Shown: one piece after another, positions 14,281-38,889 of the stretch | How the letters are laid out: the number at the start of each line of letters is the position of its first letter | Position numbering within the stretch: position 1 is the stretch's first letter | Origin: Gammaproteobacteria bacterium | GTDB lineage: Bacteria; Pseudomonadota; Gammaproteobacteria; Ga0077536 | Assembly: GCA_016191285.1 (NCBI GenBank) | Contig: JACPPA010000002.1 | Coordinates: forward strand, 140,815-204,814 | Direction: 5' to 3' | Length of the DNA: 64,000 nucleotides | The notes under the pieces: generated by a model | Databases searched by the model: none | Told to the model about the DNA's origin: nothing | Seen by the model: the letters and a program-made list of their open reading frames with translations, nothing else | Position numbers and translations under genes: made by a program

Positions 14281-15531
14281 TCAGTCGCGGCAACGGGTCA
14301 TTGGTGGCGCTGTTAATGGGTCGACCTCAAATCGGCTCTTCATATAAAAAAGTCCCATTTCCTGTTGGCGGGTGATGAGGTGGTCATCCGAAAAGACCTG
14401 GAAAGAGAAAAGATTTTCCCCATAAAATGATTCGCGTCCTTCTGGGTTCCCTATCCATGCGCGCATTGAGTAAACGCCTGGTAGAAGGGTCATGGACTCG
14501 AAATGCAGTTCGACAGAATGCTCTCCAGGTTCAAAATCACGCGCATCCTGTATGTTGTTATTGGCAGTCAAATACACAAAATCAGTTGTATGCGCACCGA
14601 TGAGGAAACAAATGCGTTCGAGGGGCTTATTAATCGTGAATTGAACGCGTATGTGGAAGGGTGAGAGAAAATCAATCCGATCCACGGATTGGCCACGCTC
14701 ATCGTAAAATACCATGTGCTTAAACGTTAACTCATCTGACGTTCTGGATTTTCCACTACTCGCATTCGAAGCATCTGATTTGATTTTCTTGTTGCTGTAA
14801 TCGAAGAAGAGATTACTAACTTCGGTTGGATCACCGTCTGCCACGGTGTGACCATGATCCAACATAATGACTCTGCCGCAGAGGCGCTCTAATTGCCTGA
14901 TGTTGTGCGAAACGATCAGCACCGTTTTCCCCTGCCGCTTGATTAGATCCTCCATCCGGTCAAAGCACTTCCGTTGAAACGCCAGGTCCCCCACCGCCAG
15001 TACTTCGTCGACAATTAAAATATCGGATTCCATGCTGGTCGCTATGGAAAACCCCAGACGCACTTGCATGCCCGAGCTGTAACGTTTGATTGGGGTGTCG
15101 ATGAATTCTTCTAGTTCGGCGAAGGCGACAATGTCATCGAACTTGCGCTGTATTTCTGCTTTGGAGATGCCGAGAATGGCGCCGTTGAGGTAGATGTTCT
15201 CGCGTCCGGTGAGGTCCCCGACCAGGCCGGCGCCCACTTCGATCAGTGGCGCCATCTTACCTTTTACAATGATGCTGCCGCTGGAAGGTTTCGAAATATT
15301 GGCCAGCAGCTTGAGCAGCGTGCTCTTGCCGGCGCCGTTGTGACCGATGATGCCCAGCACTTCGCCTTGCTCCACTTTGAAATCAACATCATCCAGCGCC
15401 TTAAACGGGGCGCGTTCTTCAACCGGTTGACCGGTGAGCCTTCGCCACTGGTTGAGCGCAGTGGTTTTCAAGCTCTGCAGTTGGCCGAGCCGGTATTCCT
15501 TGGTAACGTGATTGACTTCGATGATGGGCAT
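14281..15531 (-). CDS. wzt: O-antigen ABC exporter ATPase (Wzt-type)
   Basis: A 416-residue ATPase. The nucleotide-binding domain (about 1-235) has Walker A GHNGAGKST, signature YSSGMQVRLGFS, Walker B DILIVDEV and the switch H in VSHN. The C-terminal ~165 residues form a beta-rich Wzt_C-type domain, which in known systems recognises the glycan end. Its partner permease gene wzm lies 7.8 kb upstream at 23337-24185, an unusual separation caused by an inserted TA/repeat island. The region before the start (ACCAACCGCC-ATG) has no clear Shine-Dalgarno sequence. Confidence 0.9.
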   Translation of the reverse strand: MPIIEVNHVTKEYRLGQLQSLKTTALNQWRRLTGQPVEERAPFKALDDVDFKVEQGEVLGIIGHNGAGKSTLLKLLANISKPSSGSIIVKGKMAPLIEVGAGLVGDLTGRENIYLNGAILGISKAEIQRKFDDIVAFAELEEFIDTPIKRYSSGMQVRLGFSIATSMESDILIVDEVLAVGDLAFQRKCFDRMEDLIKRQGKTVLIVSHNIRQLERLCGRVIMLDHGHTVADGDPTEVSNLFFDYSNKKIKSDASNASSGKSRTSDELTFKHMVFYDERGQSVDRIDFLSPFHIRVQFTINKPLERICFLIGAHTTDFVYLTANNNIQDARDFEPGEHSVELHFESMTLLPGVYSMRAWIGNPEGRESFYGENLFSFQVFSDDHLITRQQEMGLFYMKSRFEVDPLTAPPMTRCRD

Positions 15532-20040: not shown

Positions 20041-20878
20041 TCATATGTTGCTTGTCCATTTGAGTTTTTTGATGGCCGGGCTCTGAAGCAGCGAGCACAT
20101 CTGCGCGATTGCGGTGGCGTTGAGTGCCATGATCCGTTGTTTTTGCGATAACCCCTGTCGTATCAGCTCGGCGTTAATACTTTCCAGATTGGAGAGTACA
20201 ACGAGCTGCTCTATGGCGGCGTGTGTCACGCATGTTACCTTCCTTGGTTGGATTTTCTTCGCGCCATTGTTTTGAGGTGATGCTGAACAGTGCCATGTTG
20301 AGCACTTCGGCTTCGGATGCGTAGATCAGCCCTGCTTGCGCCGTGGTGATACTTGCCGGAATGAGGGTTTCCGCGATGGCGTCGGTATGGATACGGTAGT
20401 TAATCTTGCTGAGGCTGCGCGTCAGGTTCCATTCAAGGGAGCGATTCGCGATCTCTTCGTCCTTGAGGCGCTGAAATTCTTTGATGAGGAAGAGTTTGAA
20501 CTCGGCAGATATCCACGAGGCAAATTCGAAGGCAATATCTTTGTGCGCAAAAGTGCCGCCATTGCGGCCGGTCGTACTTTTAATGCCGATGGCGCCAGTA
20601 GTTTCGATCCACTTATTAGGCGAAAGCGTGAAGCTGTTAGAGCCTGCTGCATTCCTTAAGGGGTCGAATTCGACCCCTTTAAAGTCCGGGTTGTTGATTT
20701 TTTCCCATAAACCGAGAAATTCGATGGTGGAGCGGCTGCGCAGCCAGTTCTTCACCACGTCCTTGGGTTCGGCGGAATTTTTAACGCGAGCGATGTCGGT
20801 TAGGGAAATGAAGTCGCTGTCATTGATCCGCGTCAGCGAGACGACCATCTCCTGGACGATCAGTTTGTTCTTGGTCAC
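20041..20878 (-). pseudogene. KilA-N domain protein, frameshifted near C-terminus
   Basis: Frame 1 (20174-20878) encodes the KilA-N DNA-binding domain typical of phage and RhuM-like proteins: FISLTDIARVKNSAEPKDVV, WLRSRSTIEFLGLWE, GTFAHKDIAFEFASWIS, and ends NMRDTRRHRAARC. The expected C-terminus (AAIEQLVVLSNLESINAELI, then QMCSLLQSPAIKKLK) is present in the next frame from about 20224 to 20041. A single-base slip at GACACACGCC explains this. Full length would be about 279 residues. It could be a recent mutation or a read error. A 34-bp palindrome lies just upstream. Confidence 0.75.
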
Positions 20879-20926
20879 TCCATCCCCCTGTGGAATATGG
20901 CGAAGTGGTTGAGCCCCGCCTCGTTA

Positions 20927-20960
20927 CCTCCAATTCCCTCGAATTCGAGGGAATTGGAGG
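20927..20960. promoter_or_regulatory. Perfect 34-bp palindrome upstream of the KilA-N gene
   Basis: Half-site CCTCCAATTCCCTCGAA is followed by its exact reverse complement with no spacer. It lies about 50-82 bases before the KilA-N start codon. A gapless symmetrical site of this length suits a dimeric operator or a strong RNA/DNA hairpin. Autoregulation by the KilA-N protein is possible but is inference. Confidence 0.7.
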
Positions 20961-21084
20961 CTGGGTTACAGATACCTTCCCAGACTGAGAGGATCTTAAA
21001 AAGAGACCGGCAAGAATTCATGGTTTTCGCGGCTGTCTCAAGGGATGTACCTTCGGATAAATCCGCTCCCCTACAAAAAAGAGT

Positions 21085-21138
21085 TCGAGACTGAGTCCGC
21101 GCACCGGCGGCGAGGCCGTCCAAGCCGAGGGCTTGAAG
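21085..21138. repeat. Composite tail fragment E
   Basis: Contains GAGTTCGAGACTGAGTCCGC, GCACCGGCGGCGAGGCCGTC and CCGAGGGCTTGAAGCT, the end of the composite repeat tail, here without an R1 core and without the wzt start. Confidence 0.7.
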
Positions 21139-21165
21139 CTACGAGCAGCAAAACTCCGGCAGAGG

Positions 21166-21457
21166 TTAGGCGCGAATGCGCCAATAATTTGGCCGACGGT
21201 GATGGTGTGCTACCGCGACGATGAACAGTTTATTCACGAGCGATCGATAAAAGACGGAATAGGGAAAGCGACGCACGATGGCCCGCCGAGAATGGCGCCA
21301 AACCGGGGAACCGATGTTGGGGTTTTCCCTGGTGATCGCCACGGTTCGCTCAACTTCGGCGGCGAACGCAAATCCAAGTCCAGCGACCTGGCGTTCATAG
21401 TATTGCGCCGCTTCACGAAGTTCTCGGCGAGCATTCATGAAACTCGATCTCAATCAC
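21166..21457 (-). pseudogene. ParE/RelE-type toxin, frameshifted near start
   Basis: The body (ARRELREAAQYYERQVAGLG, then RRFPYSVFYRSLVNKLFIVA) is a RelE/ParE toxin. The natural start is GTG 21457, which overlaps the antitoxin stop (GTGA) and reads VIEIEFHE, but an extra T after GAA shifts the frame so the body is out of phase. Translation could restart at ATG 21438 (MNARREL), giving about 90 residues that lack the first strand. It could be a mild toxin, a pseudogene or an assembly error. Confidence 0.7.
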
Positions 21458-21684
21458 TTCAAGGAATGACGGACTTCGGAAAACACCTGCGAGGCGGAGA
21501 TGGTCACGGTCTCGCCGCTTTCGATTTCAGACCAGCGACGATCAACTTCGACACGCCAGGCCTCGGCAACGTCGCCGTCATCTTGGTTATCAAGTGATTC
21601 GATTAGCGCCAACGCTAAGCGCGCGCGCTCCGGTTCGGATAATTTTCGGGCTTGGGACTCAATTTCGTGAAGATTTGTCGCCAT
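21454..21684 (-). CDS. Addiction-module antitoxin (TIGR02574-like)
   Basis: 76 residues: MATNLHEIESQARKLSEPER, ARLALALIESLD, ending SEVRHSLK. Same family as the 18831-19064 antitoxin, and followed by a ParE-like gene with a damaged start. Confidence 0.82.
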   Translation of the reverse strand: MATNLHEIESQARKLSEPERARLALALIESLDNQDDGDVAEAWRVEVDRRWSEIESGETVTISASQVFSEVRHSLK

Positions 21685-21815
21685 AAACTGGTTACCTTGG
21701 AAGCGGCAAATAGAAGCTAAGGCCGATTCCGGTCTCGGTCAAGTTGGGATCATGATTTCGATGTGTTGTTGCCGATAGGGTGGCTAAAAAAACTAGAGCG
21801 CATTCAATGGAGCGC

Positions 21816-21983
21816 AAAGTGCGGTTTGCGCCGTCACCTCGTGCTCCGAGCACTAAGTCCAGTGAAAAATGAATCGATTGTTTCACTGGATTCCGGCGTG
21901 CGCCGGAATGACGAAGGGCCAAGATTGCGCATCTCTCTCGGCATTTCAGCGTAAGTAAGTGCCGTTCGGGTCAGACACGAATT
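21816..21983. repeat. R1 copy (R1g), left end lost, plus short tail
   Basis: Body from about 21816 (AAGTGCGGTTTGCGCCGTCA) to 21963 (GTAAGTAAGTGCC), then GTTCGGGTCAGACACG joining directly to the cut HEPN gene at about 21984. The left end is replaced by CATTCAATGGAGCGC. Confidence 0.75.
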
Positions 21984-22178
21984 CTCGCCCACCGTGTCCT
22001 GCAATTTGATAAAGCGGAAAAGCAGTTGGTCCACAATCCGGACACGGGCACGATCACTTTCCAGCGCCTGCCACGTGACCGTAGGCGATGCGTTCCATTC
22101 TGCTAACGCTTCTGTAAGGGTGTCCGAGTGGCGATCCGCCTCCCACAGCACAGCGGCAAGTTTGTCGGTCGGCATCAT
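21984..22178 (-). pseudogene. HEPN-type nucleotidyltransferase partner, cut by repeat
   Basis: Starts with ATGA overlap on the nucleotidyltransferase gene. It reads MMPTDKLAAVLWEADRHSD ... LLFRFIKLQDTVGE, like the helical HEPN partner proteins of MNT enzymes, in which the conserved F-x-K-L-x-D-x-x-GE motif is followed by ~80 more residues. After residue 65 the frame is repeat sequence (NSCLTRTALTYAEMP). It is therefore a truncated toxin-type partner. Confidence 0.75.
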
Positions 22179-22492
22179 ACTTGCGCCACCTGGAGCCCTT
22201 CACGTTTTGCCGTGGCAACCACCGCCCGCGAATCTTGCTGGTCTTGCGTGGCAATGACCACATCAATGCGTTGTTCATCAAGCAGCCGGTAGAGGCGCGA
22301 CACAAAACGAGTACGACGGCGCACCAACTCCGCAGGGGGCAGGGCTGCGGGGATCTCAACCAACAGATCAATGTCTCCTCCACGCTTACTGTCATCCACC
22401 CGCGAACCAAAGAGAAACACGGCTGTACCCGGCGTAAAGGCGTCCTGGGCAGCTTGTGCAATGGCGTTCACTTCGTTGGGTTGCAATCTCAT
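22175..22492 (-). CDS. MNT-domain nucleotidyltransferase (antitoxin type)
   Basis: About 105 residues from ATG 22492 (MRLQPNEVNAI), with AGGA a few bases upstream; a longer frame to 22516 is less likely. The catalytic core reads AVFLFGSRVDDSKRGGDIDLLVE (GSR ... DIDL). The second half (RIDVVIATQDQ) is typical of this group. Paired with the truncated HEPN gene downstream. Confidence 0.82.
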   Translation of the reverse strand: MRLQPNEVNAIAQAAQDAFTPGTAVFLFGSRVDDSKRGGDIDLLVEIPAALPPAELVRRRTRFVSRLYRLLDEQRIDVVIATQDQQDSRAVVATAKREGLQVAQV

Positions 22493-22592
22493 GGGTGTCC
22501 TAATAAACGCACGCATGCACGGGGGTCGACACGAATGGCACTTACTTAAGCCAATGTTAGGTGCTACAACAATATGGCGCTAGAATTTCGAC

Positions 22593-23265: not shown

Positions 23266-23340
23266 GGGCTTGAGGCTGGTGAGTTGCTCCAGCCGGTATT
23301 CCTTGGTGACGTGGCTGACTTCGATGCTGGCCACGTTCAC
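23265..23340 (-). pseudogene. wzt 5'-end fragment A, still coupled to wzm
   Basis: GTG 23340 overlaps the wzm stop as GTGA and reads VNVASIEVSHVTKEYRLEQL, then TSLKPSA: the natural first codons of a Wzt ATPase. After about 25 codons the frame enters repeat tail and stops at 23143. This is where wzt should begin in a normal wzm-wzt operon; the intact wzt now starts 7.8 kb downstream. Confidence 0.8.
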
Positions 23341-24185
23341 ACCACGTCCGCGAAATAGGCTTCGGCGCGTTTGAAGTAGACATAACTGAGCGGCAGCAGC
23401 GCCAAGACCAGGATCAGGCCTGGCAGTACCACGTCGGGATCGGGCGCTAGCCCTTTGAGGATGGTGCGCTGGAAGCTGTCGATGATGCCGGCGAGCGGAT
23501 TGAGATTGTAGAGGGTGTAGAGCGTATGTGACCAGTCGCCGGCGGCTTGGTGCACCACGAGCTTTTCGCGCACCAAGTGCAGCGGATACATCACCGGCGA
23601 CATGTACATCATCAGTGACAGCGCCACCGGCAGGGCGGCTGAGACGTCGCGGTAATAGACGTTAAGCGCAGCGCCGGCAAAGGCGATCGTCAGCGCGGCG
23701 AGCAGGGTGTAGGCGAGCAGCAGCGGCAGCCACAGGATCTGCACGCTCGGCATGAAGCCATACCAGACCATGAGCGCGGCGAGGATGAAAAGATAGATAC
23801 CGAATTCGACGGTTTTGGTGACCACCGAGGTGAGCGGGAAGATCTCGCGGGGAAAATAAATTTTCTTAATCAGGTTGGCATTGCCGACCACGCTGGTGAC
23901 GCCTTCCGAGGCGGATTCCTGAAACAAAATCCACGGCATGAGCGCGGCGAAGGTGAGCAAGGGGTAGGGGATGGTGCCGGAATCGATCCCGATAAAGCTT
24001 CTTACTACGGTGAAGATCGCGACCAGCATCAGTGGCTTTAATACCGCCCAGGCGATGCCGAGGTACGCCTGCTTGTATCGCAGGGTGATGCTTTTCCAGG
24101 AAAGTACGGCGATGAGTTCGCGGTATTCGATGAGGTTCTTTAATAAGCCAGTCATAAAGTCGGAGGGTGCTCGGGCGCTCGGCAC
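23337..24185 (-). CDS. wzm: O-antigen ABC exporter permease (Wzm-type)
   Basis: A 282-residue ABC-2 permease with about six membrane helices; ATG 24155 (MTGLLKNLIEYRELI) is an alternative start. Motifs typical of Wzm are LIEYRELIAVLSWKSITLRY, PWILFQESASEG, NLIKKIYFPREIFPL and YNLNPLAGIIDSFQ. With Wzt it would move the undecaprenyl-linked glycan across the inner membrane. Downstream of it lies the wzt fragment and TA island. Confidence 0.9.
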   Translation of the reverse strand: MPSARAPSDFMTGLLKNLIEYRELIAVLSWKSITLRYKQAYLGIAWAVLKPLMLVAIFTVVRSFIGIDSGTIPYPLLTFAALMPWILFQESASEGVTSVVGNANLIKKIYFPREIFPLTSVVTKTVEFGIYLFILAALMVWYGFMPSVQILWLPLLLAYTLLAALTIAFAGAALNVYYRDVSAALPVALSLMMYMSPVMYPLHLVREKLVVHQAAGDWSHTLYTLYNLNPLAGIIDSFQRTILKGLAPDPDVVLPGLILVLALLPLSYVYFKRAEAYFADVV

Positions 24186-24379: not shown

Positions 24380-24745
24380 TACAATAGTGTATCGCCCATG
24401 CCCGAGTTCTCTTGAGGCGTGAGACAGGAGTTGTCGTCGTAGCGTCCGACTCTGCACACGTCATTCCGGCGCACGCCGGAATCCAGTGAAGAAATGAGGT
24501 CCGCGCGCTGCGCGGACGCCTATTCTGACTGGATCCCGGATATTCGCTGCGCGAATTCCGGGATGACGGCGTGAGACCGGAGTTGTCGTCGTAGCGCCCG
24601 ACTCCGCACACGTCATTCCGGCGCATGCCGGAATCCAAGGGCCTTAGAGCACCCATCATCGTCATTCCGGCGCACGCCGGAATCCAAGGGCCTTAGAGCA
24701 ACCCCAACCATCGTCATTCCGGCGAATGCCGGAATCCAGAGGACC
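24380..24745. repeat. CATTCCGGC repeat cluster (R2)
   Basis: Several copies of CGTCATTCCGGCGCACGCC followed by GGAATCCA, separated by short spacers such as GGGCCTTAGAGCA and a longer block with GGTCCGCGCGCTGCGCGGA, TGGATCCCGGATATTCGCTG and GTTGTCGTCGTAGCG. The same block recurs at 39155-39310. No gene is seen between wzm and 24746; 24186-24379 shows nothing clear. Confidence 0.75.
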
Positions 24746-25036
24746 TTAGAGCAACCCCGAATACAGGTCTTCCCATCGCGGGTTCGTGCGCTCAATCAGG
24801 TCCAGCTTCCACTGACGTTGCCAATTCTTGATTGCTTTTTCACGCGCGATGGCACTCGGCATGGTCTGGTGTACCTCGTACCACACGAGGGTCCGCACTC
24901 CGTAGCGGTGCGTGAAACCGTCAATCACCGCGTGCTTGTGTTGCCATACGCGCTTCACCAAATCGGCGGTCACGCCGACGTATAGCGTGCCGTTCTTCCG
25001 GCTGGCCAGCAGGTAGACGCAGGGGATCTTTCCCAC
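24746..25036 (-). CDS. GIY-YIG domain protein
   Basis: A 96-residue single-domain GIY-YIG nuclease-like protein: VYLLASRKNGTLYVGVTADL contains the (G)IY...YVG pair, followed by RVWQHKH, the Arg/His region, and EKAIKNWQRQWKLDLIE near the end. This UPF0213-like group is common in proteobacteria and its role is unclear. CATTCCGGC-type repeats lie on both sides (24380-24745 and about 25045-25080). Confidence 0.82.
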   Translation of the reverse strand: MGKIPCVYLLASRKNGTLYVGVTADLVKRVWQHKHAVIDGFTHRYGVRTLVWYEVHQTMPSAIAREKAIKNWQRQWKLDLIERTNPRWEDLYSGLL

Positions 25037-25176
25037 CGCGAAACTGTACTGGATTCCGGCATTCGCCGGAATGACGATGGTTGGATTCCCCTGATGATCC
25101 GATGTGTCGTCGCGACTTGGTCGCTACCGCTGCTCTTCTATTCCGCCGCCTTGCGCCGTGCCCAGCACCCCATGGG

Positions 25177-28100
25177 TCACCCTGAGGTGCTGGGCTCCTC
25201 GGGTTTGCCGGTAGTTCGTGCGGCAAGCGCGTCTTCGCTTGGAATGCTAATGCCGTCCAGTGCGAGAAAGTAGGTTAATTCGTGCCACAGCAGGTTGACG
25301 ACTGTCGGATGCGTGGCCGCCAGATCGTGCTGGCAACCGGGGTCGCTAGCCGTGTCAAACAGTCCTAAGAAGAAGCCATCGATCAGCGGCTGATAAAGTA
25401 ACTTCCAGCGCCCACGCACTACGGCGCGATCTTTGGCCGCGATGAGGCGCGCACGATACGCCGGCTTGATCGCCAGTGTGCCGCTGGCCTGATCGGGGAT
25501 TTCCAACAACTCGATGATCCCGGGATAGCGCAAGTGATTGTCCGGCATGCCCGGGAGATCGGTTAGCCAAATCCCGGTTTCGATGTACGCCGTAAGATTC
25601 AAATCCTGGGTCTCGCCGCTGATCAATGGGGCCAACGAAGTCCCTTGCACCGTTTCACAGGGTGCACATCCCGCGAGCTCTAACAAGGTCGGCGCAATAT
25701 CAATGCTCCGGACGGTGGCGTCCACTTTGCGCGGTGCGGGATTTCGTGGATCGCAAATCAACAGCGGGATGCGCGAGGAATAATCGCCGTAGGCGGAATT
25801 GCCCTGACCCCACGTCCCATGCTCAAAAAATTCCATCCCGTGATCCGAATAGACCACAATCACCGTATGGTCGGCGATCCCCAGTTGTTTCAGATGATCG
25901 ACTAAACGGCCCACCTCATCATCGAATTGGGCCACGCAGCCATCGTACAGGTGCAAAATTTGTTCTAAATCGAATTCCTCGCGCGGCTCGGCTTGGCGCC
26001 GAATGATGTCGAAGGGATCGGTGAGCCGGGCCATGGCGAATTTGGATTCACCCGCATAGTTCTCGGCCGCGTAGCGCGTGTACCACGGATCCTCCGATGC
26101 GAACGGCGGGTGGGTGGTTGAATAAAAAATATTGAGCAGAAACGGTCGCGGGTCGGCGGCGAGTCCCGTGATGAGGTTCCGCGCCTTGATTCCGATCTGC
26201 GAGGTAATCGGTACCCCGCCGAGATAGAAGATCTCGGGCAGTAAGCGCTCGCCGAGCCGGTTGTGGACGAACAGCGACAGGAACAAGCGTAAATCCTTGG
26301 GACCCTGCCGGATAAGATATTTGAAATTCCATTGATCGGTTGGCAGATCGAGATGATCGAAACCGAAATCGAATTTCCCCATGTCGGCGCCGCACCAGTC
26401 GGATACCGCCGCCGTGCGGTAGCCGGCGGCCGCCAGCAACTGCGGCAATGCCGGGACCGGTAGCCGCGTGTCGTGGTCGGCGACAAAATTGTCGCGAACG
26501 CGATGCAGGAGGGGCCAGGTTCCGGTCAGGATCGAAATCAGACTGGGCGCGGTGCGCGCGCACGGCACAAAGCAGTGCGCAAACTCAGTGGCGCACGCTT
26601 TCAGTTTCTCGATGTGTGGCGCGAGTCCACGGGCTGGCTCCAAGCGATCGGCACGCAGCGTATCGGACCCTATCAAGACGATATTTGGCGGACCTGCGGG
26701 GCGCGAGACCGCGCGTGTGGGCGGGACAGAGACCCGGCGTGTGAGTGTTTTTAAACTCAGGACAAAGCCGCTCCAAGCCAGCAGGGCCACGGCGGCGGCG
26801 GTGTCGCCGCGCTGAACAAGCGTCGCGCTCGCCCCGGCGACCAGCACCAGCGCGAGCGCCAGACTCACGGTCTCCGCGACTTTGAGCAAGGGCCGATTCA
26901 ACCCGCGCCATAGCGGGTAAAGACGGCTTACGCGATAGTGCATCGACGCGACGAGCAAGCCTGGGTTCTCCACCAAGGTCCGGGCAAACCGCGTCCCCGT
27001 GATGAGGAGGATGCCGGCGCAAGACGCCATGACTGCGCCGACGATCGAGTAACTGCTTCCGGCTTGAATGGTATACGCGCCATAAACTGCTGCTCCGGTC
27101 AGCGCCATGATCGCCATCAACGTGAACGCCCAAAAACTTAAGCGCAGCATCGTGAGCGCGACCTGGACTCGGTAATCGCGCAACATCGAGCGCTGGATCC
27201 CCGGCCCGGTCTGCGAAAAGTCCAAGAGTGACTTCAGCACGAGCGTCGCGGTCACGAGACCAGCAACGCTCAGCGCTACGCCAACGATTCGCCACGGAAA
27301 ATCCGGAATCGCCAGCGACGCCAAGATCGACGCCATGAGCGTGACGCCCACCGCGGCCGTCGCAACACGGCCCATCAGCGGTCGCGGTAAGCGTAGGCGC
27401 GGGAGTCGCGCCGCGTCGCGCATGCCCTGCAGCTCGCCGAGCGCCGCGGCGCTGCGGACCAAATAGAATCGGCGCTTGGCCCATGACAGCGTAAACACGC
27501 TATGCCAACTGTAATTGAGCAGCTTACGCCACATGTATAGCGGCACATCGTGGCCAGCGTGACCGATGCGCGCGCCTGAGCGCGTGCGTTGAAAGCCCTT
27601 ACGCACGATATACGATAAGGTCAGTCGCGCTAAATCGACGTAGTGATATTGAACGATGTCCGGAATGTATTGCAGCGTGGCGCCGCGACGAAGCGCACGG
27701 ATCACGTAATCACTGTCTTCGCCGCCGCCTAAGTCGTGACCGTGCGGTCCGAGCTCGGTCGAAAATCGACCGGCAAGGCCGAACACATGACGGCGCACGA
27801 TGAGGTTTCCACCGCCTGGAATGGGGCCTTCATCTTCGGTGACGAGCCGGGGTTGCGAGCCTTGATCGTAGCGTGGGACCGGCAGTGGATAAATTCGATA
27901 AGGCCCGTCGTCATGCACCCATTGCGGCTCCGCGCCGGTCCAATCGGGCAGGATCCGGCCACAATAAATAGCGGCCTTGGGGTAAGTCGCGGCCGCCGTT
28001 TCGATATGCCGAAGGTATTGCTGATCGATCCGATGATCGTCATCGACAAACGCGATCAGTTCAGTGGTGAGTTCAGGGATGGCGCGATTGAGCGCATGCG

Positions 28101-28320
28101 ATTTTCCGGGCGTGGGCTCCGCGATCCAGCGCAGGGGCAGCGCATCGCCACTCGCACGAGTGTATTCATCGAGAAATTCGTGCGTGTTGTCACTACAGTT
28201 GTTGGCCACCACGAGGATCTCCACCGGGATTGCCGGTCTGGCCGCCGCATTGAGCGAGGCCAGCACCTGAGTGAGTAATTGCACCCGGTTGTGGGTGCAG
28301 ATGAGCACGGTCAATCCCAT
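25177..28320 (-). CDS. GT2 - membrane - alkaline-phosphatase-superfamily fusion
   Basis: A 1047-residue fusion. Residues 1-300 are a GT2 domain (TVLICTHNRVQ, FVDDDHRID, GGEDSDYVIRAL). Residues about 315-530 hold some six hydrophobic helices. Residues about 545-1010 are a sulfatase/phosphotransferase-type domain: IGSDTLRAD (metal Asp 553), CARTAPSLISILTG with Thr 590 where sulfatases have Cys/Ser, and YSDHGMEFFEHGTWGQG (Asp 826, His 827). A Thr nucleophile is typical of phospho-group transferases such as EptA and LtaS. I infer one protein that glycosylates inside and modifies the glycan outside the membrane; it could instead be an inactive or true sulfatase. Confidence 0.75.
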   Translation of the reverse strand: MGLTVLICTHNRVQLLTQVLASLNAAARPAIPVEILVVANNCSDNTHEFLDEYTRASGDALPLRWIAEPTPGKSHALNRAIPELTTELIAFVDDDHRIDQQYLRHIETAAATYPKAAIYCGRILPDWTGAEPQWVHDDGPYRIYPLPVPRYDQGSQPRLVTEDEGPIPGGGNLIVRRHVFGLAGRFSTELGPHGHDLGGGEDSDYVIRALRRGATLQYIPDIVQYHYVDLARLTLSYIVRKGFQRTRSGARIGHAGHDVPLYMWRKLLNYSWHSVFTLSWAKRRFYLVRSAAALGELQGMRDAARLPRLRLPRPLMGRVATAAVGVTLMASILASLAIPDFPWRIVGVALSVAGLVTATLVLKSLLDFSQTGPGIQRSMLRDYRVQVALTMLRLSFWAFTLMAIMALTGAAVYGAYTIQAGSSYSIVGAVMASCAGILLITGTRFARTLVENPGLLVASMHYRVSRLYPLWRGLNRPLLKVAETVSLALALVLVAGASATLVQRGDTAAAVALLAWSGFVLSLKTLTRRVSVPPTRAVSRPAGPPNIVLIGSDTLRADRLEPARGLAPHIEKLKACATEFAHCFVPCARTAPSLISILTGTWPLLHRVRDNFVADHDTRLPVPALPQLLAAAGYRTAAVSDWCGADMGKFDFGFDHLDLPTDQWNFKYLIRQGPKDLRLFLSLFVHNRLGERLLPEIFYLGGVPITSQIGIKARNLITGLAADPRPFLLNIFYSTTHPPFASEDPWYTRYAAENYAGESKFAMARLTDPFDIIRRQAEPREEFDLEQILHLYDGCVAQFDDEVGRLVDHLKQLGIADHTVIVVYSDHGMEFFEHGTWGQGNSAYGDYSSRIPLLICDPRNPAPRKVDATVRSIDIAPTLLELAGCAPCETVQGTSLAPLISGETQDLNLTAYIETGIWLTDLPGMPDNHLRYPGIIELLEIPDQASGTLAIKPAYRARLIAAKDRAVVRGRWKLLYQPLIDGFFLGLFDTASDPGCQHDLAATHPTVVNLLWHELTYFLALDGISIPSEDALAARTTGKPEEPSTSG

Positions 28321-28327
28321 GTGGGTT

Positions 28328-29242
28328 TTAAGCTTCCGCGGCCGACATCCAGCCGCGAAGGTAGCCGAGGAAGTAGGCGACGTTCATTTCCAGACGCAAC
28401 GAATAGTCCGCGCCTTCTTGCGCACGCGTCGCGAGCGCGCGAACCAGCGCCCGCCCTAATTGCGCAATCAGGTATTTGGGGGGTAGACGCGACGCTGCGC
28501 CGCGCTTCCTTTGCCCCTCGGTCACGCCTTGCTTGAAATGCAAGTCGAGAAAATATTTTCGATTTAATTTCCAGGCTTGAATGCGGTGGTGAATTATTGC
28601 GGTCGGCAGCCAGCGAACCTGTAGTGAACGCTCAATCATTCGATGGTAAAGATCTGAGTCCTCGCCGCCCGTGTTGCTCCGCCCCTTTCGTCCTAAGCGG
28701 GGATTAAAAAGACCGATCCGCTCGAAGACGTCGCGGCGATAGCAGGCATTTCCGGTAAACACAGGCGTCGAACGGCTGGTCAGAAATTCGACATCCGGAC
28801 CATAATCGAGTTGCCCGAGGAAGCCGAGCAGTTCGTCCGTGAGCCACCGCGGGCGAATGGAATCTTCAAAGTAGACGACTATTTTTCCACCTATCGCGTC
28901 GGCGTGATGCGCTTGGATATCGTCGACATAAGAGACCAGCCAGGCCGGATCGGGTGTCTCGTCGTCATCCAGGAACAATAAATACTCACCGCGGGCTTCC
29001 GCCACCGCTCTATTTCGTGCATTCGCGATCCCGAGCGAAGGTTCGACTACCACTCTTGTTGGCCGGTCACAGAGTGGCCACGCACGAGAGCTCAGCAACT
29101 CAGGCGTCCGGTCCGTGCTGGCGTTATCTATAATCAGAAATTCGTATTCGCACGGGGGTGACGAAATAGCCGACAAGCCGGACAACGTGCGCTCCAATCT
29201 CGAAGCATGATTATGCGTGCAAAGCGCAACGGTCAGCAGCAT
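28328..29242 (-). CDS. Glycosyltransferase family 2
   Basis: A 304-residue GT2 enzyme: LTVALCTHNHASRLERTLSG, IIDNASTDRTPEL, YLLFLDDDETPDPAWL and GGEDSDLYHRM, the acceptor-side ED motif also seen in the GT2 part of the next gene. It ends 7 bases before the fusion gene start, so both are likely co-transcribed. Confidence 0.85.
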   Translation of the reverse strand: MLLTVALCTHNHASRLERTLSGLSAISSPPCEYEFLIIDNASTDRTPELLSSRAWPLCDRPTRVVVEPSLGIANARNRAVAEARGEYLLFLDDDETPDPAWLVSYVDDIQAHHADAIGGKIVVYFEDSIRPRWLTDELLGFLGQLDYGPDVEFLTSRSTPVFTGNACYRRDVFERIGLFNPRLGRKGRSNTGGEDSDLYHRMIERSLQVRWLPTAIIHHRIQAWKLNRKYFLDLHFKQGVTEGQRKRGAASRLPPKYLIAQLGRALVRALATRAQEGADYSLRLEMNVAYFLGYLRGWMSAAEA

Positions 29243-29254
29243 AAGGAGATAAAT

Positions 29255-30052
29255 CTAGGATGTGAACCGTGATCTAAAACGCGAAAGATAATAGCGGCAG
29301 CTCTGGACAAAACTGCCATCGTTGGCGCCAAAGCGCACCTTGCGCAAAAGCATGGTCGCGGAATCGTCGCCGAATACGTCGAGGCGTCGAATCCGTAAGG
29401 GCTCGACATCGCGACGATTAAATCCCGGCTGGGTCGAGAACGCAGCTCGATAGCCGGCCGTGGCGACCGCGGCCGCGACTCGCGCATCGAGATGCCCATA
29501 GGGATAGGCGAAGAATTCAACTGGCCTGCCGAGCAGCGCGATTAAGTTTGAGCGGGAGTCCGCGACTTCTTCGCGTAGGCGAACATCATCCAAGCTCGGT
29601 AAGCTCACATGGGTTCGTGAATGCGACTGAAAAGCGAAACCGGAATTTTGCATGTCGATAATGTGCGGGACGTCCATCAGCGGATAGGTTTGCGCTGATG
29701 GATCGGAACGGCGGCTCCATTGGTCGTCTTTACCGATGAGGTCGGTCACGAGAAAAATCGTGGCCGGCCAGCCTAAGGCTTTTAGGAGCGGAAACGCATG
29801 CTCGTATACGCCGAGGAATCCGTCGTCGAAAGTAATCACCAGCGAACGATCGGGTAACGGCTGGCCGCCTTCAATCCACGCAAAAAATCGGTCCATGGGA
29901 ACGGCCGTATAGCCAGCATCCGCTAGACGACGCAGATGGTCGTTGAATACCTGCGGCGCTACACAATACTTGCGTTCCCGGACGTTGTGCGCGGCGCCGA
30001 CCCGGTGATACATCAGCACCGGCACTCGCCCTTCAGGTGTATCTGGCGTCAT
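29255..30052 (-). CDS. Polysaccharide deacetylase (NodB-type)
   Basis: About 265 residues from ATG 30052 (MTPDTPEGRVPVLMYHRVG), with AGGA 9 bases upstream; a longer frame to 30145 runs into repeat DNA. NodB motifs: VITFDDGFLGVYE (metal Asp pair), FAFQSHSRTHVSL (His pair) and FFAYPYGHLDARV. It would remove N- or O-acetyl groups from a glycan or its precursor. No signal peptide is clear, so its location is uncertain. Confidence 0.85.
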   Translation of the reverse strand: MTPDTPEGRVPVLMYHRVGAAHNVRERKYCVAPQVFNDHLRRLADAGYTAVPMDRFFAWIEGGQPLPDRSLVITFDDGFLGVYEHAFPLLKALGWPATIFLVTDLIGKDDQWSRRSDPSAQTYPLMDVPHIIDMQNSGFAFQSHSRTHVSLPSLDDVRLREEVADSRSNLIALLGRPVEFFAYPYGHLDARVAAAVATAGYRAAFSTQPGFNRRDVEPLRIRRLDVFGDDSATMLLRKVRFGANDGSFVQSCRYYLSRFRSRFTS

Positions 30053-30124
30053 AGACAAAAATCCTCGGCATGCCTCTCTACGAAATCGATCCAAGCATAG
30101 AGCAGGATGATTGACCTCGACCGT

Positions 30125-30258
30125 CGTCATTCCGGGCGCAGCCAACCATCACCGTCATTCCGGGCGCAGCCGCTACGCGGCGGAGACCCGGAATCCAGGG
30201 GGGCTTCGGATCACTCGCATGGATTCCGGATAGTCGCTGCGCGACTTCCGGAATGACG
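30125..30258. repeat. Palindromic repeat R3 (reverse copy)
   Basis: GTCATTCCGGGCGCAGCC occurs twice (30125 and 30154), then CGGAGACCCGGAATCCAGG, GGATCACTCGCATGGATTCC and CGACTTCCGGAATGACG. Same family, opposite orientation, as 36678-36781 and 36898-37000. Confidence 0.75.
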
Positions 30259-30462: not shown

Positions 30463-30789
30463 CTATGTCGGTCGCGCTTGATTGCCGTCTGGCCTTTTGC
30501 CGCGTGCGTTGAGTGTCGGTAGGGTCTTAATGGCGTCGCCGGTTTTTTGTTCGGCCACCCGCAAGTCGTAAATCGACTGAAGATTCAGCCAGAATTGTGG
30601 GCTAGTGCCAAAGAAATGTCCTAAACGAAGTGCGGTGTCGCCGTTGATGGCGCGCTGTCCATTCAGGATTGCCGTGATGCGATTGGCGGGCACGTTGAGC
30701 TTGCGTGCAAGTTCCGTTGCGCTCATATCAAGCGCTCCAAGCTGCTCGGCAAGCTGCTCTCCGGGATGAATCGCACTGCGCGCCATGAT
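30463..30789 (-). CDS. higA: HigA-type antitoxin
   Basis: About 108 residues from ATG 30789 (MARSAIHPGEQLAEQLGALD). Helix-turn-helix region MSATELARKLNVPANRITAI, then GQRAINGDTALRLGHFFGTS with SPQFWLNLQS, the standard HigA/XRE signature. It follows higB by a few bases and probably represses the pair. Its last codons meet the duplicated GT2 segment. Confidence 0.9.
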   Translation of the reverse strand: MMARSAIHPGEQLAEQLGALDMSATELARKLNVPANRITAILNGQRAINGDTALRLGHFFGTSPQFWLNLQSIYDLRVAEQKTGDAIKTLPTLNARGKRPDGNQARPT

Positions 30790-30796
30790 GTGCCTC

Positions 30797-31078
30797 TTAG
30801 TGATAGTCCGTGATTTCGACATTACTTGGGCCACCCGTCCCCTTAGGCCATGTGAAGCAGATTCGCCACTGATCGTTAACGCGAATGCTGTATTGGCCCC
30901 TGCGATCGCCTTGCAAAGCTTCGAGCCGGTTCCCCGGTAAGTCTAGCTCCAGCAACGAAGTTGCCGCGTCGAGTTGGTCGAGATGCAACTCCGCTTTACG
31001 CGCGAAGCCGGAGAAAGCCTTGACTCTTTTCCCTGCGGCGAACGTCCGCGTCCGTTTATCCCGGTAACTGGTGATCAT
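30797..31078 (-). CDS. higB: HigB-type mRNA interferase toxin
   Basis: About 93 residues from ATG 31078 (MITSYRDKRTRTFAAGKRVK). RelE-fold HigB signature: LDAATSLLELDLPGNRLEAL, GDRRGQYSIRVNDQWRICF, ending VEITDYH. Toxin-first gene order is typical of higBA. It appears intact. Confidence 0.9.
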   Translation of the reverse strand: MITSYRDKRTRTFAAGKRVKAFSGFARKAELHLDQLDAATSLLELDLPGNRLEALQGDRRGQYSIRVNDQWRICFTWPKGTGGPSNVEITDYH

Positions 31079-31190
31079 GATTCTACACTGGTGAGGCGCG
31101 CAGCGACGAAGCAATCCATCCTTAGCAACACCATAGATTGTTTCGCTGCGCTCTTAAGAACGATTGCTGAATCGACGCACGACTACGATC

Positions 31191-31356: not shown

Positions 31357-32319
31357 CTATGACGCATCGGCTTCGCGATCATTGCGTGTCACGAGCTGTT
31401 TGAATACCGCATACGGCAGTAACGACGGCAACAAGTATTTCAGATCCGCCATGGACCACGCCCCCGCTTTAAATGCTGCCCTAAATAGCGCGTGTGCGTC
31501 GGCGAGTTGACGCGTCCAGAACGAGCGGTAGGCCTCGCGAAGCAGTACGCCCGTGGTCAGCGTGCGAAGCTCCCGCTTATCGAGGTGGCTCACCAGGGTC
31601 GGGTTATGGGTCGCGAAGAATTGTCGTACCTCGACGGCGTCCAGCACTTGCCGGCAGCGATTTTTTGAGATTTGCCCATGCTGATGCCATCGATAGAAGG
31701 CAAGGACTTCCGGCACCCGTGTTAATTTCGGTGTGTGCGCGTATATCCGTAGCCAGAGATCGTAGTCCATCGCGGAGAAACGCCGCTCGGAGAAGCCGCG
31801 TACGGCGTCCATGACTTCGCGCCGGATCAGCGCGGCATGAATGGGCCATGGACAGTTTTTGAGGAAGGCCGTGGTGGTGTCCCCGGCGCCATAGTCCGGC
31901 GGGATGAAGGGATCTCTACTGTGCGTGGTCTCCCCGACGTTTTGCCATCCGCAATACGCGAGATCCGCAGTCGAGCTTTCTAGCGCTGACTGGAGCCGGG
32001 TTAGACAGTCAGCGGTCCAATAATCATCCGCGTCGAGAAAGGCGATAAAAGCTCCGCGCGCCTTGCGTAAGCCTAAATTACGCGCCGGGAAAGGCCCTTG
32101 GTGATTCTGCGCGAGTACGGTAATTCGGCTCGGATAGTCAGTGCTAAGCCGCTCGAGAAGAGTCACCGACTCATCGGTCGAGCCATCGTCAACGACGATT
32201 AACTCAACTGACGGATAACGCTGATTCATTACACAGGTGACAGCCTCCTCAAGATACGCCGCGGAGTTGTAGCAGGGCATGATGACGCTGATTAATCCAG
32301 GCGTCTGGGTGCCGGTCAT
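31357..32319 (-). CDS. Glycosyltransferase family 2
   Basis: About 320 residues from ATG 32319 (MTGTQTPGLISVIMPCYNS), whose ATGA overlaps the stop of the upstream short gene. Motifs VVDDGSTDES, ARNLGLRKARGAF and FLDADDYWTADC are GT2 donor/metal sites. Its 3' end is duplicated at 30256-30452. Confidence 0.85.
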   Translation of the reverse strand: MTGTQTPGLISVIMPCYNSAAYLEEAVTCVMNQRYPSVELIVVDDGSTDESVTLLERLSTDYPSRITVLAQNHQGPFPARNLGLRKARGAFIAFLDADDYWTADCLTRLQSALESSTADLAYCGWQNVGETTHSRDPFIPPDYGAGDTTTAFLKNCPWPIHAALIRREVMDAVRGFSERRFSAMDYDLWLRIYAHTPKLTRVPEVLAFYRWHQHGQISKNRCRQVLDAVEVRQFFATHNPTLVSHLDKRELRTLTTGVLLREAYRSFWTRQLADAHALFRAAFKAGAWSMADLKYLLPSLLPYAVFKQLVTRNDREADAS

Positions 32320-32549
32320 GACGACACCGTCGCGGGATAGGTCGCGGTGATGACATCGGCGATCCGCGGCCACTCAAAGCGCCGCGCAAACACCAGGGTC
32401 TCGGGGCCGCGTAGCCGGAGTTGAATTAAGCTCGCCAGCGGACGGCCAGCGACCGCGCATTGAAAATCGTCGCAGCGCAGGTTCGAGCCGAACGGCGTGA
32501 CGTGTTTGCCGGCGAGAAGGGCGTCGAGGTTGATGGACGATGCTTGCAT
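32316..32549 (-). CDS. Short protein, probable C-terminal piece of a glycosyltransferase
   Basis: 77 residues: MQASSINLDALLAGKHVTPF, then GSNLRCDDFQCAVAG and ARRFEWPRIADVITATY. The last part looks like the C-terminal helix of GT4 enzymes, so this may be the remnant of a longer gene whose 5' part is lost. It is coupled by ATGA to the following GT2 gene. Identity is uncertain. Confidence 0.45.
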   Translation of the reverse strand: MQASSINLDALLAGKHVTPFGSNLRCDDFQCAVAGRPLASLIQLRLRGPETLVFARRFEWPRIADVITATYPATVSS

Positions 32550-33183: not shown

Positions 33184-34242
33184 ATGGCCGGCGTCCGAGT
33201 GATGTTCCAGATGACCGATCGCGACCCGTCCGTGCCCTTGCCCCCGCCGCTGGTGTCTATCGTTGTCCCCACGCGCGACCGTCCCATGGAATTGCGTCAG
33301 GCGCTCGAAAGCGTCGCGATGCAGGAAGGGGTCAACCTCGAAATCGTGATAGTCGACGACGGGTCGGTGCCGCCCGTGGACTTGACCGCGATCACTCGCG
33401 GGATCCCGCTCGGTGTGCGGCTCTTGCGCAACGCCACGCCACGCGGCATCGCACACGTCAGAGAACAAGGCGCGGCTGCTTGCATTGGCCATTATGTGAT
33501 GCAACTGGATGATGACGATATCCTGGCCCCGGGTGCGATCAGGCAGTTGCTCGACGTCCTGATTGCTTCCCCGACGACTGATGTGGTCTACCCTGGGGTA
33601 AAGGGCTTTGGCGCCACCGCGGAAGAGTTCAACAGAAATCATGGTTCGGCGATCTCGAAACTGCTCACCAACGTCCCGCCGATGCCCATCGCGGGCAATG
33701 CCCAGCGATTTCCGCGCGAGGTCTTGTTGGCACTGTTGCAATCGGTACCGATGGCGTTTCAGCGGCCTTTTGCCGCGCGAAGCGTCTGGATGAATGTCTT
33801 CGAATTGCGGCAACGTGCGTATCAGGCTGGCAGCCAGACACGGAATCCCTATTTTTCGCCGCAGAATCCCGATCAGCTCACCGAATCGGAATGGACCTTG
33901 TACGCGGCAGTCGACTTGCACCTCGCCTACTTAGCCGAGCCGCTGTATCTGCAGCGCTGCGATCACGCCCGCTACTATTCGCGCCCGGAATTTGCGGAGG
34001 CGCAGTTGCTAGCCAACGTGGCCGTTAAGTCGACGCTGCATTTTGCCGCCTCTGAACTGGACCGGCTCGGCGTCTGGCGGCGGTTTCTGCGCGAGAGTTA
34101 TGCGGTTGGCTGCTTTGACCTCGCTTATTGGTATGAAAAGCAGGGGATGCGCGGCGCGGCATCTGCTTTTTTGAAAGCGGCGTTGAACATAGCACCCCGC
34201 TGGAGATATCTGCGGTATTGGCTGCGCACTCTTTTGCCCTGA
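33184..34242 (+). CDS. Glycosyltransferase family 2
   Basis: A 352-residue GT2 enzyme on the opposite strand to its neighbours; ATG 33202 is an alternative start. Motifs: VSIVVPTRDRPMELRQALES, IVIVDDGSVPPVD, YVMQLDDDDILAPGA. The C-terminal half is helical and ends with paired aromatic residues (WRYLRYWLRTLLP). Acceptor unknown. Confidence 0.83.
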   Translation: MAGVRVMFQMTDRDPSVPLPPPLVSIVVPTRDRPMELRQALESVAMQEGVNLEIVIVDDGSVPPVDLTAITRGIPLGVRLLRNATPRGIAHVREQGAAACIGHYVMQLDDDDILAPGAIRQLLDVLIASPTTDVVYPGVKGFGATAEEFNRNHGSAISKLLTNVPPMPIAGNAQRFPREVLLALLQSVPMAFQRPFAARSVWMNVFELRQRAYQAGSQTRNPYFSPQNPDQLTESEWTLYAAVDLHLAYLAEPLYLQRCDHARYYSRPEFAEAQLLANVAVKSTLHFAASELDRLGVWRRFLRESYAVGCFDLAYWYEKQGMRGAASAFLKAALNIAPRWRYLRYWLRTLLP

Positions 34243-37056: not shown

Positions 37057-38889
37057 TTAGATAAGATCGACCCCAGTCGAATCCACCCACACCGCGAGCG
37101 CCACGAGGATCCACGCGAGCGTACCGTAATACGCCGGATGTTCGTTCAACTTAGTCGACAGAAACTCATCGCGAAATCCTGCTTTCAAGATTTTCCGATC
37201 TTCTAATCCGCGCAGCCGCGCGTGTGCAAATTCGCGCAAGCGCGGTTGTTCATGGAGCCAAACGCCAAACGGCAAGCCAAATCCTTGCTTGCTCTTAGCC
37301 AAGGTAGCGGCGGGCAAAAAATCCTTAAACGCGCGGCGATACAGCGGGCGGAGCTCTCGCGCCGAAACTTTTCCGGCGTTAGGTATACGACACGATACTG
37401 CCACCACCGCTTCGTCCAACATGGGGTACGCCACTTCGATTCCGGCCAGCGCACACATGCGCGAAACTTTCGGCAGATCGCTGTCGGCCAGCGTGATCCG
37501 CCAATCGAGACTGAGCAGACGGTTGACGGTGCTGGTGCCCTCTGGTGCGGCATACATGGCGCGTAATTCTCGGAGCGGCGCGGTGCGATCGATCGACGCC
37601 AAAAAGTCGGGTGTAAAAAACGTGCTCGGCACGACGCGATTGAGCAAGTTGTAGGTCATCAAACGATCCGGTAGAGGAACCGCTGCCTGGCGAATATAGC
37701 TGGCGGCCTTACCTAGCAGCCCAATTTGCAGGAACGACGGTAAGTTCGAGGCCATCGGCTCGATCATCCCGGCACGTAATCCATGTGGCAACCGCGCGTA
37801 ATGTTCAAACGCCAGTTGTTTGGCATAACGTTCATTGCCGCCAAACAACTCATCACCGCCGTCGCCGGCCAGAATAACGCGATGACCTTGAGACGCCGCA
37901 TGCTTCGCGCAGTAATACGTCGGAATCGCCGAGGCATTACCAAACGGCGCGTCGAACTCGCCGATAATGGCGGGTAGCGCGTCGACAATATCGGCTGGGG
38001 TCACATAGTAGCTTTCATGCCGCACGCCGAAATGCCGCGCGGCGCCACGCGCGTATTCCATTTCATCATAGCCCTGCGCTTCGAAGCCGATCGTATACGC
38101 GACGGTGTCGGCGCGGTGTTTGGCGGCGTAGCCGGTGACGGTGGAACTGTCGAGTCCTCCGCTCAGAAAACTTGCTGGAGTGGAATTGGGAAGACGGCGA
38201 GCAACTGCCTGGTCGATACTTGCGCGCAATTGTTCGGCAATAGCAGCTTCTGAACTGTAGGAATCGATGGGAAACGATGGCTCCCAATAGGGCGCGATCT
38301 CAACACGACCCTCTCGCCACCGCAAGAAATGGCCAGGAAGTAGCCGTTGCATCCCGGCGTAGCCAGCATCCGGACCCGGCAGCCAATGGAAGTAGACGCT
38401 GTTGTAGAGGCTCTGGTGGGAAAACCGATTACGAACGACGGGATGCGCGGCGAGCAGTCGTGACCGATTGGAAAACGCGATCCCATCGGGTGTGATTACG
38501 TAATAAAGATTCTCGATGGCAAATCGATCTACGGCGAGCACGACTTCGCGTGTTTCGGAATCGATTGACGCAAACGCGAAATGACCGCCGATGGCGGCCA
38601 GCGCGGCCCGCGGGTTGCGATCGGCCTTAAGCGCGATGGCGACCGGTGAAGGCAGCGGCTCGCTTCTAGTGCCGAGTGGGTAGGGGGCGCCGAACAGTGC
38701 GGCGATAGATCGATTACTTGGCGAGGGTTCCGCGTTGACGATTCCGCGCCAGTGCAGCGCGGCGTGGCTACTCGTGTTGGTCGGCGCGACGAACTTGGAC
38801 CAATCGCTCGCGTCCGCGCGCTGGAGCCAATGGTCGGATTTCAGGCGATCTTTGGCGAAATAACCGAGAAAGAGAGTCCCTGCTGGCAT
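37057..38889 (-). CDS. Asparagine-synthase-like amidotransferase
   Basis: 610 residues. The synthetase domain has the PP-loop FLSGGLDSSTVTGYAAKH (241-258), LAGDGGDELFGGNERYAKQL and ...RELRPLYRRAF. The N-terminal domain keeps the glutaminase-like fold (GGHFAFASIDSETREVVLAV, FSNRSRLLAAHP) but begins MPAGTLFLGYF with no Cys at position 2, so glutamine hydrolysis looks absent. In polysaccharide clusters such proteins may amidate a sugar acid or make another ATP-dependent amide; the substrate is unknown. Confidence 0.82.
   Translation of the reverse strand: MPAGTLFLGYFAKDRLKSDHWLQRADASDWSKFVAPTNTSSHAALHWRGIVNAEPSPSNRSIAALFGAPYPLGTRSEPLPSPVAIALKADRNPRAALAAIGGHFAFASIDSETREVVLAVDRFAIENLYYVITPDGIAFSNRSRLLAAHPVVRNRFSHQSLYNSVYFHWLPGPDAGYAGMQRLLPGHFLRWREGRVEIAPYWEPSFPIDSYSSEAAIAEQLRASIDQAVARRLPNSTPASFLSGGLDSSTVTGYAAKHRADTVAYTIGFEAQGYDEMEYARGAARHFGVRHESYYVTPADIVDALPAIIGEFDAPFGNASAIPTYYCAKHAASQGHRVILAGDGGDELFGGNERYAKQLAFEHYARLPHGLRAGMIEPMASNLPSFLQIGLLGKAASYIRQAAVPLPDRLMTYNLLNRVVPSTFFTPDFLASIDRTAPLRELRAMYAAPEGTSTVNRLLSLDWRITLADSDLPKVSRMCALAGIEVAYPMLDEAVVAVSCRIPNAGKVSARELRPLYRRAFKDFLPAATLAKSKQGFGLPFGVWLHEQPRLREFAHARLRGLEDRKILKAGFRDEFLSTKLNEHPAYYGTLAWILVALAVWVDSTGVDLI

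Follow-up and report, generated by a model that had tools for sequence, protein, structure and literature searches.

A threonine-bearing sulfatase-fold domain joined through a membrane domain to a glycosyltransferase in proteobacterial polysaccharide loci

What does a single protein do that joins a family 2 glycosyltransferase (GT2) to a domain of the alkaline phosphatase (AP) superfamily, and on which side of the membrane does the second domain lie? The question is raised by a gene on contig JACPPA010000002.1 of a gammaproteobacterium (assembly GCA_016191285.1), within the 64,000-nt stretch from 140,815 to 204,814 that was analysed as a whole and is here called the window. The open reading frame (ORF) runs from 28320 to 25177 on the minus strand, opens with ATG and encodes 1047 amino acids with zero internal stops; the plus-strand reading of the same interval has 25. 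Judged from sequence, many beta- and gammaproteobacteria have GT2 and AP domains in a single chain with a polytopic membrane domain between them, both with their motifs intact.

Architecture and distribution of the fusion

Pfam finds both domains in the ORF, Glycos_transf_2 at residues 4-148 (PF00535, 7.1e-16) and Sulfatase at 545-884 (6e-37), and the first is placed in GT2 by this match together with DDD at 93-95 and ED at 201-202. With the ORF and an AlphaFold model, these matches bear out a sequence-only reading that had described one 1047-residue chain of GT2, membrane helices and an AP-superfamily domain. Compared with its relative L065, the gene differs at 310, 226 and 553 first, second and third codon positions over 1032 codons, with a third-position excess in all three parts. 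Because of this excess and the recurrence of the fusion in 65 of 80 loci, the ORF is taken as a coding gene rather than a chance one. An origin as a sequencing artefact was rejected on the relatives found in the genome scan and on the coding constraint. Two in-frame Met codons, M300 and M316, occur in the stretch inspected for internal starts: M316 lacks a Shine-Dalgarno-like sequence, and M300 has an AGGG one base ahead, which is too close by the usual spacing rule. Separate translation of the GT2 and AP halves, of which this inspection gave no sign, is unsupported given these poor start signals and the fusion in 65 of 80 loci. A scan of the window for RNA features returned none reaching the gathering score.

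A first search of 58 genomes, the window's own included, found the full fusion in G030 (65%), G001 (50%) and, from another family, G056 (45% by blastp), and the GT2 and AP parts on separate ORFs in G006. A one-genome-per-species scan with alignment A2, which holds the window protein and seven relatives found without patterns, then yielded 139 relatives, counted as those pattern matches that reach tblastn E <= 1e-3, and the best 80 were kept. These are titled Thiobacillus, Nitrotoga, Aromatoleum, Thauera, Sulfuriferula, Marichromatium, Methylophilaceae, Methylococcaceae and others, all Pseudomonadota; several are near copies (Thiobacillus), and L065, L071 and L089 are apparently the same records as G030, G001 and G056. 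Among the best 80, 65 carry the fusion with the window's type of GT2 (GT-A), five are fused to a different GT2 (GT-B; Pfam was run on L094, L096, L098 and L102, and L100 was judged from its sequence), seven are split and three are cut by a contig end. In the window's class, the membrane-plus-AP unit occurs in 20 of 369 genomes, its own included (E <= 1e-60).

Ten regions of 5 to 8 kb each, picked from the 20 positive genomes for unfused-looking frames, were opened. A GT-A homologue (44-55%) is a separate nearby ORF in six, a GT-B homologue (66%) ends 26 bp before the AP frame in one, and neither GT2 has a homologue at the 44-66% level in three. Thus two GT2 types pair with one membrane-plus-AP unit, fused and unfused, as swappable but paired modules. 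A tree built by a quick method, in which long branches meet in four places (one being the window with L065), assigns five changes to the five GT-B fusions and four to the seven split forms in its group table, which counts the cut row L101 as a different group though it falls in with L096 and L098. When cut rows are removed, the three architecture states need eight changes. Among the papers that searches of the open PMC literature listed, no functional study of the GT2-membrane-AP fusion was found by title and abstract opening.

Active site of the sulfatase-fold domain

The AP domain is a sulfatase fold by both its PF00884 match and its structure, with best matches to 6hr5 (Z 37.4, 2.7 Å over 355 residues), 4upl (Z 36.1, 2.6 Å over 384 residues) and 2w8s (Z 34.2, 3.4 Å over 392 residues). 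The nucleophile position is occupied by T590, within CARTAPSLIS, which lies opposite the Cys of the CxPSR motif in 6hhm and 4upk, a Ser in 7p24 and an Ala in 4uph. Across 81 sequences (the window protein and its best 80 relatives), D553, R589, T590, R609, D641, W642, D646, K649 and H737 are invariant, and T590, D553 and H737 fall outside the scan patterns. D826, H827 and Q839 are also found in 81 of 81, yet this count is biased because the patterns required all three. In A2, T590, D553, R589, H737, D826, H827 and Q839 are invariant in eight of eight. The domain further has 96 positions identical in at least 80 of the 81 sequences and five cysteines conserved in 76 to 81 of them.

In sulfatases, sulfate is bound by the Arg of CxPSR, a later Lys and the Lys and His of GKWH. 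The Arg falls on L594 in all four printed alignments, and its place is held across the family by Leu in 80 sequences and Met in one. The later Lys falls on Q839 in three of the four (6hhm, 4uph and 4upk), and the GKWH Lys and His on D641 and C643 of SDWC in one (7p24), the other three leaving GKWH unaligned. The second signature of S1 sulfatases, GKWH with an active-site Lys, is accordingly missing, D641 and Q839 being present in 81 of 81. The formylglycine-forming Cys or Ser was found at the CxPSR place in none of the 81 sequences, all of which have Thr, and a genuine sulfatase was rejected on this ground.

The Asp motif SDTLRADR (D553) and SDHG (D826, H827) are both present in the fusion protein, and together with T590 they make up a conserved candidate D-T-D-H ligand set. 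The available portions of the source papers give corresponding one-metal sets of T285, E246, D465 and H466 for MCR-1 (PMC5031297) and T300, E255, D475 and H476 for LtaS (PMC7576196). By sequence comparison, then, the sulfate binders are replaced and the one-metal set of threonine phosphotransferases is retained. The sequence-only reading had proposed Thr 590 in place of the sulfatase Cys or Ser, which proves to be a family trait, and metal-site Asp and DHG motifs, which are indeed kept; its phosphotransferase-type site gains support from the predicted one-metal residue set.

Membrane side and function

Six helices (315-336, 343-366, 384-420, 426-451, 476-503 and 507-526) are modelled in the full-length AlphaFold prediction (pLDDT 90, pTM 0.82), a separate model of the membrane part agrees, and hydropathy averaged across the 81 sequences gives the same six segments. 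The four presumed inner loops have mean net charges of +2.4, +1.5, +5.8 and +2.5, and the three outer loops 0.05, -0.5 and 0.4. All 74 sequences counted have a higher density of Lys and Arg in the loops presumed to be inside than in the outer ones (1314 of 7531 residues versus 145 of 1708); the count takes its loops from window coordinates, omits the 7 of 81 rows that are gapped at column 330 and uses TM1 in 72 of the 74. The 25 residues after the last span carry a net charge of +4 in the window protein, -1 in a protein of the same genome that reads as LtaS-like, -1 in Escherichia coli OpgB and 0 in BcsG. Two hydrophobic segments precede a conserved anchor in 68 of 71 fused members and one in 16 of 19 free-standing members, contig-cut rows (three) being excluded, the starts of the free-standing frames being provisional and one of these members, L117, being doubtful (a 1495-residue frame with no match to the membrane part). 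The extra span in fused members would leave the side of the AP domain unchanged when a cytoplasmic GT2 joined it. We therefore predict that the protein probably has six spans with GT2 and AP domains both cytoplasmic, and the outside location that the sequence-only reading gave the AP domain is probably wrong in view of the modelled helices, the loop charges and the extra segment. An outer-face catalytic domain of the LtaS, EptA or OpgB type is accordingly not predicted here. The membrane domain had no Foldseek match at E <= 0.001 and a best VIA score of Z 6.1; LtaS, EptA and YejM are absent among the matches listed, which excludes none of these folds.

On this topology we favour, tentatively and at somewhat less than an even judgement, a bifunctional exopolysaccharide (EPS) enzyme of the cytoplasmic face that extends a lipid-linked glycan and transfers a phospho-substituent by way of T590 before export. 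At the inner leaflet, the GT2 would add a sugar to a lipid-linked (polyprenyl-linked) glycan, which the AP domain on that face would bind next. With a single metal ion held by D553, D826 and H827, T590 would attack a phosphodiester donor, which could be a nucleotide-activated alcohol or a phospholipid of the inner leaflet. The phospho-substituent would then reach the glycan through phospho-T590, before export. The membrane-plus-AP unit pairs with two kinds of GT2 and so probably carries out a single chemistry on at least two glycans.

Several points weigh against this transferase. In sequence, the AP domain lies closer to phosphonate monoester hydrolases and type I sulfatases than it does to LtaS or YejM, and the choline-sulfatase profile scores 4.6e-29 versus 6.5e-4 for LtaS and 1.7e-4 for YejM. 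LtaS, EptA/MCR and OpgB act outside the membrane. The 527-545 linker is positive in just 69 of 81 sequences and in 12 of 19 free-standing forms, and the number of segments before the anchor deviates in 3 of 71 fused and 3 of 19 free-standing members. The hydropathy counter also gives six segments in the LtaS-like protein, where it splits a single stretch of 37 residues, and finds just three in BcsG, so the number of segments proves little by itself. Among the representatives of 26 neighbour clusters and the scanned window genes, none was recognised as making a donor. The EPS of Thauera aminoaromatica MZ1T, whose gene cluster is compared below, is given as four sugars in the available part of PMC4784049, and phosphate on EPS goes unreported in the available parts of the published accounts of these clusters.

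The cytoplasmic side would also suit a hydrolase that splits a phosphodiester or phosphomonoester in the lipid-linked glycan, for editing, trimming or release, or a by-product of the glycosyltransferase. The nearest folds are hydrolases, and choline sulfatase and the phosphonate monoester hydrolases are soluble enzymes. This reading nonetheless appears unlikely, though it deserves to be taken seriously: the conservation of the membrane domain points to a lipid substrate, the positive sulfatase residues needed for dianions are lost, and second-metal ligands of nucleotide pyrophosphatases were not recognised, no search aimed at their motif having been made. The loss of several sulfatase residues could also mean that the AP domain is non-catalytic, a glycan- or lipid-binding module that guides the chain and keeps its site for binding only, its pairing with glycosyltransferases being structural. 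The invariance of T590, D553, H737, R589, R609, D641, W642 and K649 over 81 sequences, and of the 96 near-identical positions, makes this very unlikely.

Another arrangement is the one first proposed for this gene, with the GT2 inside and a periplasmic AP domain that, like LtaS, EptA, OpgB and BcsG, moves phosphoethanolamine or phosphoglycerol from a phospholipid to the glycan after flipping. It accounts for a D/E-T-D-H site with Thr as in MCR-1 and LtaS, and it draws on the free-standing members, of which 16 of 19 have one segment before the anchor, 15 of 19 have all four later regions hydrophobic (the sixth region being unmeasurable in 4 of 19) and 7 of 19 lack a positive linker. Their spans are thus mostly five, the number given for MCR-1 in the available part of PMC5031297. 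The six helices modelled in the fused protein and the loop charges in 74 of 74 sequences tell the other way, and a GT2 that uses nucleotide sugars would sit outside, unless one of the six helices does not cross; we consider this arrangement improbable. Sulfate chemistry, in which the AP domain acts on glycans sulfated by neighbouring sulfotransferases, rests on sulfotransferase-like genes in 50 of 86 neighbourhoods (the best 80, L022-L026 and the window; PF13469 was found on one representative of each of three clusters). No such gene was found in the other 36, the window's included, many of these being short stretches, and the formylglycine Cys or Ser is absent in 81 of 81, so this reading is highly improbable; a sulfotransferase as a regular partner was likewise dropped.

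The cytoplasmic transferase can be put more sharply, and more doubtfully, as a threonine sulfatase-fold phosphotransferase carried on interchangeable GT2s. It might add a sugar and phospho-cap or decorate the glycan before export, leaving, in the window's ABC-exporting host, a mark readable by the C-terminal domain of Wzt. If so, the AP superfamily would carry out phospho-decoration not only outside the membrane, and an unnamed family, annotated 'sulfatase' in bacteria that form flocs and biofilms (Thauera, Thiobacillus, Nitrotoga and others), would be a glycan-building enzyme whose glycan product can be sought directly. The family is of interest chiefly for its membrane side and its interchangeable GT2s.

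Gene neighbourhood and known systems

The glycan-biosynthesis setting assumed for the gene is supported by the glycosyltransferases, deacetylase, amidotransferase and ABC export genes of the window (Table 1). The 86 neighbourhoods include duplicates and differ in length, and ORF calling in them followed a crude longest-first rule. In 21 of them there is a flippase-like gene (cluster 8).

Table 1 Features of the fusion gene and its surroundings, in window positions
Feature	Position	Strand	Evidence
GT2 / six-helix membrane / AP-superfamily (sulfatase-fold) fusion, 1047 aa	25177..28320	-	ORF, Pfam, AlphaFold
GT2 domain, residues 1-300 (DDD, ED)	27421..28320	-	Pfam, motifs
Membrane domain, residues 311-535	26716..27390	-	Hydropathy, loop charges, models
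AP-superfamily / sulfatase-fold domain, residues 541-1030	25231..26700	-	Pfam, alignments, structure matches
D553 codon, metal-site Asp, 81/81	26662..26664	-	Alignment
T590 codon, putative nucleophile, 81/81	26551..26553	-	Motif, alignment
H737 codon (THPPF), 81/81	26110..26112	-	Alignment
D826-H827 codons (SDHG)	25840..25845	-	Motif, alignments
GT2 gene directly upstream of fusion, neighbour cluster 3	28328..29242	-	Pfam, clustering
Polysaccharide deacetylase, neighbour cluster 5	29255..30145	-	Pfam, clustering
GT2, same gene cluster as fusion	31357..32373	-	Pfam
GT2, same gene cluster as fusion	33184..34242	+	Pfam
Asparagine-synthase-like amidotransferase, neighbour cluster 7, 32/86 neighbourhoods including window	37057..38889	-	Pfam, clustering
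ABC-2 permease, Wzm-like	23337..24185	-	Pfam
ABC ATPase with Wzt_C domain, Wzt-like	14281..15531	-	Domain match

Two further neighbours recur across the family. A TPR protein (cluster 2; Pfam on one representative; for example L076:11117-11896) is present in 59 of 86 neighbourhoods, in most layouts immediately past the fusion gene and on the other strand, and the window contributes none to this cluster. A protein of about 308 residues (cluster 22; for example L075:2540-3466), which has no Pfam match above the cut-off, lies upstream of the fusion in 9 of 86; in these neighbourhoods, of which L025 and L089 are one record, the fused GT2 is just 40-48% like the window's.

In the window itself, a small GIY-YIG nuclease-like gene (24746-25036; PF01541, 5.6e-15) lies within 24704-25084, flanked by a pair of 36-nt inverted repeats that complement each other perfectly. 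Both arms are themselves palindromic repeats of the CCGGAATCCAG type, of which there are further copies between 21.8 and 25.1 kb. The whole has the look of a mobile repeat-nuclease unit, and 92 bp separate its end from the 3' end of the fusion gene. KilA-N, ParE-like and nucleotidyltransferase genes and a HigB-like/helix-turn-helix pair stand among the polysaccharide genes at 20174-22516 and 30463-31114. The ORFs at 34462-36642 (726 residues) and 42735-44075 (446 residues) have no Pfam or NCBIfam match at E <= 0.001, and the sole Pfam match of a 1104-residue protein (39437-42751) is VanZ, in two stretches, the best at 23-144.

Apparent counterparts of the gene have been annotated before. The EPS gene list mz1t_3244-3253 of T. 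aminoaromatica MZ1T closes with 'sulfatase [wbbL]', and Tmz1t_3253, annotated 'sulfatase (wbbL)', belongs to a cluster with GT2s, a deacetylase and an asparagine synthase, in which the deacetylase gene tmz1t_3249 has a nonsense mutation in a non-flocculating mutant and restored flocculation (PMC4784049, available part). The psc1 cluster of Rubrivivax gelatinosus, likewise with GT2s, a deacetylase and an asparagine synthase, lists a corresponding gene, RGS1_10427, as 'sulfatase (wbbL)', which bears no transposon mark in the available part of that account (PMC3684757). Both resemble the window gene as a 'sulfatase' in floc or biofilm EPS clusters, a likeness of name and place. They apparently belong to the fusion family, on their names, their gene content and the GT2-AP fusion carried by T. 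aminoaromatica S2 (L085).

By fold, the AP domain is nearest to the type I sulfatases and phosphonate monoester hydrolases (S1; PF00884), from which the fusion differs in having Thr for the formylglycine Cys, in the replaced sulfate-site Arg, both Lys and His, and in being membrane-bound and fused to a GT2. With LtaS, EptA/MCR, OpgB and BcsG it shares the AP-superfamily fold, the one-metal D/E-T-D-H site and a polytopic membrane domain ahead of it, and with the first three also the Thr nucleophile, that of BcsG being Ser. The catalytic domain is extracytoplasmic in LtaS, EptA, OpgB and BcsG, whereas that of the fusion is predicted to be cytoplasmic; the fusion also has six modelled helices and a GT2, and its sequence stands nearer to type I sulfatases. 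BcsA and BcsG, the cellulose synthase and its periplasmic phosphoethanolamine transferase, act on one glycan, and their genes are annotated in L109 and L111. There, as in the fusion, a GT2 works with an AP-superfamily phosphotransferase, but as separate proteins.

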